From: Paucibacter sp. KBW04
Lineage (GTDB): Bacteria > Pseudomonadota > Gammaproteobacteria > Burkholderiales > Burkholderiaceae_C
Reading direction: 5' to 3'
Assembly: GCF_003852425.1 (NCBI RefSeq)
Contig: NZ_QAJN01000012.1
Span: forward strand, 244,009-308,008
DNA: 64,000 nt
The notes beneath the pieces were generated by a model. The model had not been told where the DNA came from and did no database searches. It saw only the letters and a program-made list of their open reading frames with translations. The position numbers and the translations under genes are program-made. Of this stretch, positions 39,416 through 48,085 are shown piece by piece. Within the stretch, counting starts at the first letter, position 1; each line of letters opens with the position of its first letter.

Positions 39416-39421
39416 TACAAT
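39416..39421 (+). promoter_or_regulatory. Candidate -10 box for the thrS leader transcript
   Basis: TACAAT, one of the better -10 matches in the region, 38 bp before the leader ATG. TTGTCA at 39386 is the nearest -35-like hexamer, but the spacing (24) is too long, so the -35 is unresolved and the call is weak. Confidence 0.3.
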
Positions 39422-39458
39422 CGAGGCACGATCAACGAACAAGGGCGAGAAAGGCATC

Positions 39459-39503
39459 ATGGTTATGACACCGCGAACTACGACCACCTCTACACAGGTT
39501 TAG
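39459..39503 (+). CDS. Threonine-rich leader peptide (thrS attenuator)
   Basis: A 14-codon open frame, MVMTPRTTTTSTQV, ending in TAG at 39501. Six codons are for threonine (ACA, ACT, ACG, ACC, ACC, ACA), four of them in a row at 39477-39488, and all four Thr codons occur. It is preceded by AAAGG four bases before the ATG. Its stop lies 152 bp upstream of thrS. With the downstream terminator and the pairing segments described for the attenuator, the pattern fits a peptide whose translation measures the supply of charged threonyl-tRNA. The translated product would have no other role. Confidence 0.75.
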   Translation: MVMTPRTTTTSTQV

Positions 39504-39558
39504 TCGGCCGCGGCTTGTCACGTCTTTCTCAGCTGTCTTTTCTCAGGCAGCCCCCAGC

Positions 39559-39588
39559 AAAAAGCGCGGCACAGTGGCCGCGCTTTTT
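39559..39588 (+). terminator. Intrinsic terminator in the thrS leader
   Basis: AAAAAGCGCGGC / GCCGCGCTTTTT with a six-base loop (ACAGTG): a 12-bp stem whose right side ends in five T, followed by CATTTCT. It lies between the leader peptide and thrS, in the sense orientation. Confidence 0.85.
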
Positions 39589-39655
39589 CATTTCTGGGTT
39601 TGCATTGAGGCCAATAGCGCCCGGGCAGTCCCACAGAATTTCGGAGTATTGAAGA

Positions 39656-41563
39656 ATGATCTCGATTCAATTGCCTGACGGCTCCAAGCGCGAGTTCCCG
39701 CAAGCCGTCACGGTGGCCGAGGTGGCTGCCTCTATCGGTGCCGGTTTGGCCAAGGCCGCGCTGGCGGGGCGTGTCGACGGCCAAATGGTGGACACCAGCC
39801 ATCTGATCGCCGCCGATGCCCAGCTGGCCATCATCACGGACAAGGATGCCGACGGCCTGGAGGTGATCCGCCACTCCACCGCCCACTTGCTGGCTTATGC
39901 CGTCAAGGAATTGTTCCCCGAGGCCCAAGTCACCATCGGCCCGGTGATCGAGCACGGCTTCTATTACGACTTCGCCTACAAGCGTCCCTTCACGCCGGAA
40001 GACCTGGCCGCTATCGAATCCAAGATGAGCGAGCTGGCCAAGAAGGACGAAAAAATCACTCGCTCGGTGCTGCCGCGCGACGAAGCTGTCAGCTATTTCA
40101 AGGGGCTTGGCGAGGCCTACAAGGCCGAGATCATCGAGAGCATTCCGGCCGATCAGGATGTCTCGCTCTACGCCGAAGGCAAGTTCACCGATTTGTGTCG
40201 TGGCCCTCACGTGCCCTCTACGGGCAAGCTCAAGCATTTCAAGCTGATGAAGGTGGCCGGCGCTTACTGGCGCGGTGACCATCGCAACGAGATGCTTCAG
40301 CGCATCTACGGCACGGCTTGGGCCAGCAAGGACGACTTGCAAAAGTATTTGCTGATGCTGGAAGAGGCGGAAAAGCGCGACCACCGCAAGCTGGGTCGTG
40401 AGCTGGACCTGTTCCATATCGACGAGCACGCACCGGGCGTGGTGTTCTGGCACCCCAAGGGCTGGACGGTCTGGCAAGAGGTGGAGCAGTACATGCGCCG
40501 CGTCTACCGCGACAACGGCTATCAGGAAGTCAAGGGCCCGCAGCTGCTGGACAAGTCGCTGTGGGAGGCCTCGGGCCACTGGGACAAGTACAAGGACGCG
40601 ATGTTCACGACAGAGTCGGAAAAGCGCGACTACGCGCTCAAGCCGATGAACTGCCCCGGTCACATCCTGATCTTCAAGCATGGCATCAAGAGCTATCGCG
40701 ATCTGCCTCTGCGCTTCGGTGAGTTTGGTCAATGCCATCGCAACGAGCCCACAGGCGGCCTGCACGGCATCATGCGTGTGCGTGGTTTCACGCAAGACGA
40801 CGGCCACATCTTCTGCACGGAAGATCAGATCCTGCCCGAGTGCGTCAACTACACGGCTCTGCTGCAGAAGGTCTACAAGGACTTCGGCTTCACCGACATC
40901 ATCTACAAGGTGGCCACGCGACCCGAGGCTCGCATCGGCTCGGACGAAGTCTGGGACAAGGCCGAGTTCGCGCTTATGGAATCGCTGCGTGCCTCGGGCG
41001 TGGAATTCGTCATCGCCCCGGGTGACGGCGCCTTCTATGGCCCCAAGATCGAGTACACGCTGAAAGACGCCCTGGGCCGCCAGTGGCAGTGCGGCACCAT
41101 GCAGGTGGACTTCTCCATGCCCGGTCGCCTGGGCGCGGAGTTCGTCGACGAAGACGGCCAGCGCAAAACACCGGTGATGCTGCACCGCGCCATCGTGGGC
41201 AGCCTGGAGCGTTTCATCGGAATTTTGATTGAGCAGCATGCGGGCGCTCTGCCGGCCTGGCTGGCGCCGACCCAGGTTGTGGTGGCCAATATCACGGATG
41301 CGCAGGCGGATTACGTCGCTGAAATCGTGAAATCGCTGGAGAAACAAGGGCTTAGAGTCCAGGCCGATTTGCGCAACGAGAAGATCACGTATAAAATCCG
41401 CGAGCATTCTTTGCAAAAGGTTCCGTTCATCCTGGTCGTAGGCGACAAGGAAAAGGCAAATGGAACCGTTGCGGTGCGCGCCCGTGGCAACCAAGATTTG
41501 GGTGTGATGGCTCTGGCAGACTTCCTCGTGAAGGCCGCAGCCGACGTCGCTCAAAAGACCTGA
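39656..41563 (+). CDS. thrS: Threonyl-tRNA synthetase
   Basis: A 635-residue class II synthetase (E. coli 642) that charges tRNA-Thr. The N-terminal TGS domain covers about 1-62, and the editing domain with [10 protein letters not shown] begins near 79. The catalytic core has the zinc cysteine in MNCPGH and the motif 2 region [24 protein letters not shown], and the C-terminal anticodon-binding domain runs from about 540. CGGAG precedes the ATG. It is the first structural gene after the candidate Thr attenuator and starts the conserved translation-factor operon thrS-infC-rpmI-rplT-pheST-ihfA. Confidence 0.97.
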
Positions 41564-41592: not shown

Positions 41593-41634
41593 CCCGAGGC
41601 GCGCTTTTGTTTTGTTTGGGCCCCGCGCCTCGGG
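41593..41634 (+). promoter_or_regulatory. Hairpin in the thrS-infC spacer
   Basis: A perfect 11-bp stem CCCGAGGCGCG (41593-41603) / CGCGCCTCGGG (41624-41634) around a U-rich 20-base loop. Its right arm also belongs to a second possible hairpin, GCCCCG / CGGGGC (41620-41636), so the two exclude each other. It ends 21 bases before the infC start codon. No T-run follows, so it may control translation or RNA cutting rather than transcription end. Confidence 0.5.
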
Positions 41635-41655
41635 GCTCGTTGAAAGGTATCCACC

Positions 41656-42201
41656 ATCGCTACTTTTGCTGACCGTCGTGCTGTTCCTGAGCGCAAGCAT
41701 CGGCTGAACCGTGAAATCATGGCTCCCGAGGTTCGTCTGAACGGCCCTGAGAATGAGCCGCTCGGAATTGTGAGCATCCAGGAAGCGCTGCGCATGGCGG
41801 GCGAGCTGGACGTGGACGTTGTCGAAATCTCCGCCACCGCCACACCTCCGGTGTGCCGCCTGATGGACTACGGCAAGTTCAAGTACATCGAACAAAAGCG
41901 CGCTGCCGAGGCCAAGTCCAAGCAGAAGGTCATTGAAATCAAGGAAGTCAAGTTCCGCCCGGGTACGGACGAAGGCGACTACCAGATCAAGATGCGCAAT
42001 CTGCGCCGCTTCATCGCCGAGGATGGTGATAAAGGCAAGGTGACCCTGCGTTACCGCGGCCGCGAAATCACCCACCAAGACATCGGTATGCGTCTGCTGG
42101 AGCGTATCCGTGATGAGTTGGCGGATGTGGCCGTGGTGGAGAATATGCCGCGCCTGGAAGGCCGTCAGATGATCATGGTCCTCGCTCCTAAAAAGCGTTG
42201 A
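41656..42201 (+). CDS. infC: Translation initiation factor IF-3, AUC start codon
   Basis: IF-3 (181 residues) binds the 30S subunit and checks start-codon pairing. The C-terminal domain ([29 protein letters not shown]) and end VLAPKKR are intact. The start is assigned to ATC at 41656: this gives the conserved N-terminus with KHRLNREI, and AAAGG lies eight bases before it. In this frame a TGA at 41641 is followed only by AAG, GTA, TCC, ACC, ATC, so no ATG, GTG or TTG can begin the full protein. The next in-frame ATG at 41719 would remove 21 conserved-type residues and has no ribosome site. A rare start codon on infC is the basis of IF-3 autoregulation in E. coli (AUU). Confidence 0.95.
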
Positions 42202-42579: not shown

Positions 42580-42936
42580 ATGCCTCGCGTTAAACGTGGT
42601 GTTACCGCTCGTGCCCGTCACAAGAAGGTCCTGGCTCTGGCCAAGGGCTTCCGTGGTCGTCGTAAGAATGTCTTCCGCATCGCCAAACAGGCGGTGATGA
42701 AGGCAGGCCAATACGCCTACCGTGACCGTCGCGCCAAGAAGCGTGTGTTCCGTGCCCTGTGGATTGCTCGTATCAACGCAGCAAGCCGCGGTCTGGGCCT
42801 GACATACAGCAAGTTTGTGGCTGGCCTGAAGAAGGCTCAGATCGACATCGACCGCAAGGTCCTGGCTGATCTGGCTGTTAACGATCCTGCTGGTTTTGCC
42901 AGCATCTTCGCCAAGGTCAAGGCCGCTCTGGCTTAA
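42580..42936 (+). CDS. rplT: 50S ribosomal protein bL20
   Basis: A 118-residue ribosomal protein needed early in 50S assembly. It carries the highly basic N-terminus [29 protein letters not shown] and the globular C-terminal part with [18 protein letters not shown] very strong site (AAAGGAGATTTAAT) precedes the ATG, 25 bp after rpmI. In other bacteria bL20 represses translation of the rpmI-rplT mRNA by binding an rRNA-like fold. Confidence 0.97.
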
Positions 42937-42942
42937 TGTGAG

Positions 42943-42991
42943 GAACCGCTCTTGGCGGTTCTTCGCAGCCTCAGGCTCTTGTGGCCTGAGG
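42943..42991 (+). other. Two hairpins in the rplT-pheS spacer
   Basis: GAACCGC / GCGGTTC (42943-42961), then CCTCAGGC / GCCTGAGG (42969-42991). They sit directly before the terminator at 43003. The right arm of the second hairpin contains GGCCT, able to pair with AGGCC in the left arm of that terminator, the geometry of an antiterminator. Confidence 0.45.
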
Positions 42992-43002
42992 TGAGCACCC
43001 TC

Positions 43003-43034
43003 AAGGCCGACGCTGCATGCTCGGCCTTTTTTTA
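43003..43034 (+). terminator. Intrinsic terminator between rplT and pheS
   Basis: AAGGCCGA / TCGGCCTT stem (43003-43010, 43021-43028) with a ten-base loop, followed directly by TTTTTATTT. It lies 66 bp downstream of the rplT stop and 33 bp before pheS. Either it ends the thrS-rplT transcript or it works as an attenuator for pheST. Confidence 0.8.
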
Positions 43035-43067
43035 TTTCCGCCCGAACGAAGAATTTTTGGCTTCAAG

Positions 43068-47657: not shown

Positions 47658-47735
<78 letters not shown>

Positions 47736-48008: not shown

Positions 48009-48085
48009 CGGAGCGTAGCGCAGCCTGGTAGCGCACTTGCATGGGGTGCAAGGGGTCGCGAGTTCGAATCCCGCCGTTCCGACCA
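48009..48085 (+). tRNA. tRNA-Pro (anticodon GGG), second copy
   Basis: The same tRNA as at 47659 with an encoded CCA and identical anticodon arm. Three bases differ: acceptor position 4 is A (A-T instead of G-U), and one T-stem pair is C-G instead of T-A. The changes keep or improve pairing, so both copies are expected to be functional. Confidence 0.97.

Follow-up and report, generated by a model that had tools for sequence, protein, structure and literature searches.

Ribosome-mediated attenuators that act through a leader peptide control the amino-acid operons thrABC, trp, and his of Escherichia coli, and in the same organism a tRNA synthetase operon, pheST, is under attenuation via the leader peptide PheM. 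For thrS, the gene encoding threonyl-tRNA synthetase (ThrRS), the textbook forms of autoregulation are tRNA mimicry in E. coli and T-boxes in the Firmicutes, where thrS carries T-box leaders that attenuate according to the charging of tRNA-Thr. Among the papers listed in our literature searches, none appears from its title and abstract opening to treat a thrS leader attenuator in proteobacteria; Lopatovskaya et al. 2010, which reportedly concerns attenuation of aminoacyl-tRNA operons, may include a thrS prediction.

Two published systems act on the same gene as the leader described here. In the available text on E. coli, the thrS operator is a mimic of the tRNA-Thr anticodon that is bound by ThrRS, and repression is translational, with ThrRS acting on hairpins upstream of the start codon (PMC11088916, PMC3858243). 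In the available text on S. lividans, thrL is a predicted leader peptide (MKRVRPFLETTPGFVPAR, with two Thr codons) before thrS, on a leaderless transcript and with no clear Rho-independent terminator (PMC8079986).

Here we analyze the leader of thrS in a stretch of 64,000 nucleotides from Paucibacter sp. KBW04, referred to as the window, and in relatives across the order Burkholderiales. A preliminary description of the window had proposed a threonine leader-peptide attenuator for thrS, and the proposal is supported, at the level of sequence, by a conserved start, conserved Thr codons, and co-varying pairings. We consider it highly probable that thrS is controlled by its leader through ribosome-mediated transcription attenuation, with charged tRNA-Thr as the signal sensed. 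Like the amino-acid operon attenuators, it combines a short open reading frame (ORF) rich in cognate codons, competing 1:2, 2:3, and 3:4 stems, and an intrinsic terminator, but its target is a tRNA synthetase gene, whereas those of the E. coli thrABC, trp, and his attenuators are biosynthetic operons. It resembles pheST with PheM in kind of control and differs in amino acid, gene, and sequence. Attenuation and the thrS target are shared with the T-box, the RNA of which binds the tRNA itself, unlike the ribosome-sensing leader proposed here. The S. lividans thrL sequence is unlike that of the window leader and is described for one genome, with covariation not given in the available text, whereas the Burkholderiales leader co-varies (PMC8079986). 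The mechanism is classical and its target unusual; a proposed order-wide swap of control and a tRNA-hosted form, described below, seem to be the new parts.

The Leader and Its RNA Elements

The reading frame at 39459-39503 translates as MVMTPRTTTTSTQV and contains six Thr codons, four of them consecutive, with all four Thr codon types used. This much of the 14-codon ORF of the preliminary description holds; its start, ATG 39459, does not, because the base triplet there varies among relatives while GGTTATGACACCGCGAAC is kept, and it was discarded in favor of the conserved start at 39465. Read from that ATG, the leader has 12 codons, MTPRTTTTSTQV, and a TAG stop at 39501-39503. Among the relatives compared, what is conserved more widely is an R-T core, which the run of four Thr codons extends. 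AGAAAGG at 39448-39454, which matches the 16S tail, is the likely Shine-Dalgarno sequence. The elements before thrS thus run in the order TACAAT, AGAAAGG, ATG 39465, the codons for MTPRTTTTSTQV, TAG, a spacer hairpin, and a 12-bp terminator:

39416..39421, plus strand: -10-like hexamer TACAAT, inferred leader promoter (from position clustering in relatives)
39447..39455, plus strand: 5' strand of outer stem P1, overlapping AGAAAGG and pairing with 39522-39530 in the predicted untranslated fold
39465..39503, plus strand: leader peptide ORF, MTPRTTTTSTQV and stop, with Thr at codons 2, 5-8, and 10; conserved start and MTPRT core
39466..39475, plus strand: element 1, inside codons 1-4, partner of element 2 (duplex -18.1 kcal/mol)
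39507..39516, plus strand: element 2, 5' strand of the antiterminator, directly after the stop codon (-14.0 kcal/mol with 39562-39570)
39522..39530, plus strand: 3' strand of outer stem P1 (predicted fold)
39532..39551, plus strand: spacer hairpin between elements 2 and 3 (minimum-energy folds)
39559..39570, plus strand: element 3, terminator 5' arm AAAAAGCGCGGC, conserved in relatives
39577..39588, plus strand: element 4, terminator 3' arm GCCGCGCTTTTT, with both-side changes in 5 of 11 stem pairs among relatives
39656..41563, plus strand: thrS, threonine--tRNA ligase, presumed target (TIGR00418, 726.8 bits)

Among the matches listed for thrS, the closest named genes are those of Roseateles and of a Rubrivivax MAG, at 90% identity.

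The 12-bp intrinsic terminator that had been proposed between the ORF and thrS is present at 39559-39588, with a loop of 6 and a stability of -19.5 kcal/mol. A simple terminator scanner reported only a minus-strand match at 39559-39588 and missed the plus-strand terminator, an omission that pairing of the U-run into the stem might explain. The fold of 39440-39600 reaches -66.5 kcal/mol (z -6.1), and none of 200 shuffled sequences folded as well. In this segment, the mutually exclusive 1:2, 2:3, and 3:4 pairings put forward in the preliminary description can all be found, and 1:2 and 2:3 co-vary among relatives: 1:2 joins 39466-39475 with 39509-39513 and 39516-39520, and 2:3 joins 39507-39516 with 39562-39570. 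Their position would allow a ribosome sitting on the Thr codons, or at the stop, to switch between them. Control must be kinetic, because the finished terminator (-19.5) outweighs the antiterminator (-14.0) at equilibrium.

Transcription probably begins near 39428, ahead of the leader, as judged from a -10-like hexamer that keeps a nearly fixed upstream distance, and not downstream of the terminator, the arrangement that the preliminary description had held to speak against attenuation. In 114 leaders, -10-like hexamers occur 54 times at -48 to -51 from the leader ATG, against 2.6 per 10 nt further upstream; the TACAAT of the window lies at -49. A promoter scanner found no full sigma-70 promoter before the leader.

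We propose the following sequence of events. RNA polymerase would start near 39428, and a ribosome would load at AGAAAGG and translate MTPRTTTTSTQV. With Thr-tRNA scarce, the ribosome would stall on the Thr codons and cover element 1; element 2, freed by the stall, would pair with the incoming 5' arm of the terminator, the terminator would form too late, and thrS would be transcribed by read-through. With Thr-tRNA plentiful, the ribosome would reach the stop codon and cover element 2, and the terminator would form. On an untranslated leader, the outer stem would close, element 1 would pair with element 2, and the terminator would form as well. The net response to threonine would be more ThrRS when charged threonine tRNA is low.

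Conservation of the Leader

Enrichment was assessed by counting short ATG ORFs with at least three Thr in eight codons upstream of thrS. Such an ORF occurs in 44 of 48 upstream regions of the family, comprising the window and others picked without use of the motif (0.7 in dinucleotide-shuffled sequence, 0 on the reverse strand), in 39 of 75 named loci (1.1 shuffled, 1 reverse), and in 18 of 62 upstream regions from other families (1.5 shuffled, 5 reverse). Val is also high (16) in the set of 62, where a nearby tRNA-Val gene reads as a short ORF. A search for GGTTATGACACCGCGAAC with an upstream AAGG, allowing up to two mismatches, matched 32 of 399 genomes of the order, compared with 1 for the pattern written backwards. 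All 30 GGTTATGACACCGCGAAC matches that were fetched lie 113-280 nt upstream of thrS, and a 31st (G342) does likewise by its coordinates.

Among 196 distinct upstream regions not picked by pattern, 105 short ORFs begin M-T-P. The detector pattern had required Thr at codon 5, and codon 5 was recounted without that requirement: with codons 4 and 5 unconstrained, it is Thr in 105 of 105 (ACT 98, ACG 7). Codon 4 is CGA in 93, CGG in 7, and CTG in 5, and Thr-5 is kept in the CTG cases. After codon 5, Thr accounts for 155 of 763 codons (20.3%) in 87 non-redundant leaders, followed by Ser (10.1%) and Arg (9.2%), and is spelled ACC 82 times, ACG 39, ACA 21, and ACT 13. The stretch ACA CCG CGA AC is nearly invariant. 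Conservation of the core extends to the nucleotide level, wobble positions included, which threonine sensing alone would not require, and many leaders have just two or three Thr codons.

Elsewhere in the order, Thr-bearing leaders include MSFRTTTTGTLNLG, MFKRTTTTRISR, MQRTSTKTITYLG, MLFRTRTRTF, and MISRPTRTTTGNFRPMSR, among others, and most leaders outside the MTPRT group retain a CGA-ACN core. A leader detector, designed after the R-T core had been seen and biased toward it, registered 30 of 66 upstream regions from other families of the order, representing 20 of 43 families; it found no leader in 25 of 78 named upstream regions or in 23 of the 43 other families sampled. The 20 families include f8 and f10, which have leaders although their loci were later dropped as duplicates. 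Families f2, f9, f16, f27, f41, f42, and f45 of the order fall outside the sample. Duplicates, judged by the last 180-200 nt, and loci with too little upstream DNA were left out, as were doubtful ORFs (L104 from the set of 107 leaders; L053, L076, L104, and L207 from the sets of 105 and 87); L053 and L076, both doubtful, are still contained in the 107-leader swap test and the ribosome-state modeling below. By our own detector, a terminator is present in 150 of 156 leader loci. Aligned across Burkholderiales, a comparison that the preliminary description had recommended, the leaders have a start, Thr codons, and stem pairings that are conserved or co-vary.

Some relatives depart from this pattern. 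The leader ORF was not found in L043, L046, L060, L067, L075, L077, and L026, several of which are labeled Limnohabitans; these loci retain, before thrS, a hairpin like AAGCGCGGC..GCCGCGCTT about 20-30 nt past a TAAAAT-like box. In L070 the leader sequence is recognizable, and the position of the start codon reads ATA.

A covariance model, R1, placed the leader directly before thrS in 122 of 150 genomes of the family, a count that is partly circular because most of the leaders used to build R1 come from that family. The location directly before thrS is free of this circularity, and 122 of 122 family matches of at least 37 bits are immediately upstream of thrS. An off-target family match, G089, scored 30.8 bits, and L293 is another family match of R1. 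When the order was searched, 44 of the first 50 matches sat before thrS. Among four off-target matches examined, two come after genes of cold-shock-like appearance by eye, a third is a plain terminator, and the fourth is an additional copy of a tRNA-Val-leader at a contig end; L292 and G241, the latter with no thrS position on record, also fall outside the 44.

In Rfam 15, T-box included, nothing matched the window leader at gathering score, and Thr_leader (RF00506) gave 17.0 bits, under its cut-off of 55. In the leaders of 17 related loci, the only matches were to tRNAs and to a single antisense model, the latter in overlap with a tRNA, and assignment to a known Rfam family was dropped for the window leader and these 17 loci. 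The leader is an easily aligned RNA family lacking an Rfam 15 match in the loci searched.

Co-variation and Predicted Switching

A swap test compared the duplex energy of each leader's own strands with that of strands exchanged among leaders, over 5000 permutations. In 105 non-redundant leaders, the own strands pair better than exchanged ones for the 2:3 antiterminator (z -6.3), the 1:2 pre-emptor (z -3.6), and the Shine-Dalgarno and post-stop strands of P1 (z -4.8), in each case with 0 of 5000 permutations as good. Two control pairings gave z -0.2 (1:3) and z +0.4 (Shine-Dalgarno with element 3); direct pairing of element 1 with the terminator arm, as in 1:3, was rejected since it does not co-vary. 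In a subset of 31 very dissimilar leaders, the values were -4.7 for 2:3 (0/5000), -2.1 for 1:2 (102/5000), and -3.4 for Shine-Dalgarno with post-stop (1/5000). The effect is modest for any one leader: own pairing beats the median swap in 64 (2:3), 59 (1:2), and 75 (Shine-Dalgarno with post-stop) of 107. In the window leader, the native 2:3 duplex (-15.4) does not surpass the median obtained with swapped partners (-16.1). For the Shine-Dalgarno sequence with element 1, own pairing in the 105 leaders is worse than swapped (z +3.4), as if masking of the ribosome site by element 1 were selected against.

In the terminator stem, where 88% of cells are paired, 5 of the 11 pairs show changes on both sides, a result reached by 0 of 500 shuffles. 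This covariation count is weak alone, because a slide control with the partner shifted by 2 columns scores almost equally (0.126 vs. 0.127; double-changed cells, 13 vs. 8; 68% paired).

Ribosome states were modeled on the RNA up to the terminator loop, as the probability that the 5' arm of the terminator pairs upstream. Averaged over 107 leaders, it is 0.40 on untranslated RNA, 0.615 when the ribosome sits at codon 5, and 0.43 when it sits at the stop. The codon-5 state lies above the untranslated state in 83 leaders and above the stop state in 93, the latter in part owing to the smaller amount of RNA in the stop state; with the linker shuffled, the probabilities are 0.51 at codon 5 and 0.50 untranslated. 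For the window leader, the model gave 0.12 untranslated, 0.58 stalled, and 0.56 at the stop, so that in this model its untranslated state agrees with attenuation and its stop state does not clearly do so. The best structure for the window holds the antiterminator at -21.4 kcal/mol when the ribosome is stalled at codons 5, 6, and 10; with the ribosome at the stop, the best structure is weaker, at -15.5.

These patterns also bear on what the ribosome would report. An attenuator governed by ribosome position might sense some other or additional signal, such as slow decoding of Arg CGA, the MTPRT nascent peptide, or the efficiency of leader initiation. Such a reading could draw on CGA at codon 4 in 93 of 105 leaders, on the near invariance of ACA CCG CGA AC, on the few further Thr codons in some leaders, and on the co-variation of the Shine-Dalgarno and post-stop strands, which would have initiation compete with structure. 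We nonetheless think it unlikely: codon 4 can be CTG (Leu) while codon 5 is always Thr, Thr after the core stands at 20% against 9% for Arg, the best 122 family matches of R1 all precede thrS, and pairing with element 2 could account for the CGAAC bases.

A Proposed Exchange with the E. coli-Type Operator

Outside Burkholderiales, other orders of the class often have a UCGU-type loop on a hairpin ahead of thrS, as E. coli K-12 does; we take this hairpin to be the published ThrRS operator, the hairpins of which are described as resembling the tRNA-Thr anticodon loop (PMC11088916). A relaxed search for such anticodon-mimic hairpins, broadened after those of the other orders and of E. coli had been seen, found them in 19 of 48 other-order upstream regions, against 0.75 in shuffled sequence. 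Inside the order they are at chance, with 1 in 66 upstream regions from other families and 2 in 127 from the family and the named loci (1.25 and 1.8 in shuffles); the two family and named matches are both terminator loops, and a ThrRS-binding mimic in the order was dropped as a candidate. In turn, the leader detector registered 0 of the 48 other-order upstream regions, which were drawn from higher-scoring thrS matches and not randomly.

Leader and mimic look mutually exclusive, and this suggests that the control of thrS was swapped near the base of Burkholderiales, an order that, from these sequences, seems to use the leader in place of the E. coli-type control. The leader would be a further way of controlling thrS, conserved in a large part of this big order, and the mimic does not exceed chance among the groups that have the leader. 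This recommends thrS as a compact system in which to study the exchange of regulators at a single essential gene.

The same comparison weighs on the idea that ThrRS, or some other factor, binds the conserved RNA itself, as happens at the E. coli operator, and that the ORF is incidental. Conservation of GGTTATGACACCGCGAAC at the nucleotide level is what gives that idea its appeal, but the start codon is conserved with an AAGG-type site upstream, later codons keep Thr despite different third bases, the anticodon-mimic hairpin is not above chance in the order, and the strands that co-vary are the switching strands; we judge direct binding very improbable.

Leaders in the Trailer of tRNA-Val

A tRNA-Val(GAC) gene lies within 450 nt upstream of thrS in 32 of 48 other-order loci and, within the order, in 47 of 66 loci belonging to other families. 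Its frequent presence, and the terminator it needs, could suggest that upstream transcription simply ends at an ordinary terminator ahead of thrS and that the short ORF is there by chance, but this is scarcely credible in view of the Thr enrichment, the conserved start, the co-varying 2:3 pairing, the R1 matches before thrS, and the window itself, which has no tRNA gene upstream of thrS. A chance ORF was ruled out by the enrichment and the R1 matches together with the conservation of codon 5.

Twelve loci, which represent 11 families plus an unassigned MAG, have their leader ATG only 17-27 nt past the 3' end of the tRNA, placing the leader in the tRNA trailer:

L100, L186, L190, L198, L202, L209, L210, and L212-L216: leader in the tRNA-Val(GAC) trailer

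The gap would be too short for a separate promoter, and the attenuator is the sole terminator noticed by eye between the tRNA and thrS in these 12 loci. The terminator of tRNA-Val and the attenuator of thrS may therefore be one and the same, a single terminator for both genes. We offer, tentatively and with somewhat less than even confidence, the following history: early Burkholderiales passed from repression of thrS by ThrRS and a tRNA mimic to codon-sensing attenuation, which was born in the 3' trailer of tRNA-Val; in several families a single terminator still ends tRNA-Val and gates thrS, and the lineage of the window later gained a promoter. If true, the arrangement would be a case of a tRNA terminator serving as an amino-acid sensor. 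One locus, L290, has another copy of the tRNA-Val-thrS leader where its contig ends; the sequence past the terminator looks like the 5' end of a group II intron.

The Downstream Cluster

In the window, thrS is followed by infC, rpmI, rplT, pheS, pheT, and ihfA, and the leader offers a direct route for asking whether threonine charging reaches IF-3, L35, L20, and PheRS, as the preliminary description suggested that it could. Between thrS and infC, an 11-bp hairpin without a U-run occupies 41593-41635. By eye, the probable start of infC is a non-standard ATC at 41656, which precedes the ATG ORF at 41719 by 21 codons. The gap between rplT and pheS contains, at 42930-43040, three stable hairpins, the last of them terminator-like and followed by a U-run (AAGGCCGACGCTGCATGCTCGGCCTTTTTTT), with a fold z of -6.85; no Phe-rich short ORF was seen there by eye, and the cluster of hairpins is possibly a separate attenuator of pheST. 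Downstream of the gene cluster lie two tRNA-Pro(GGG) genes, at 47659-47735 and 48009-48085, about 270 nt apart.
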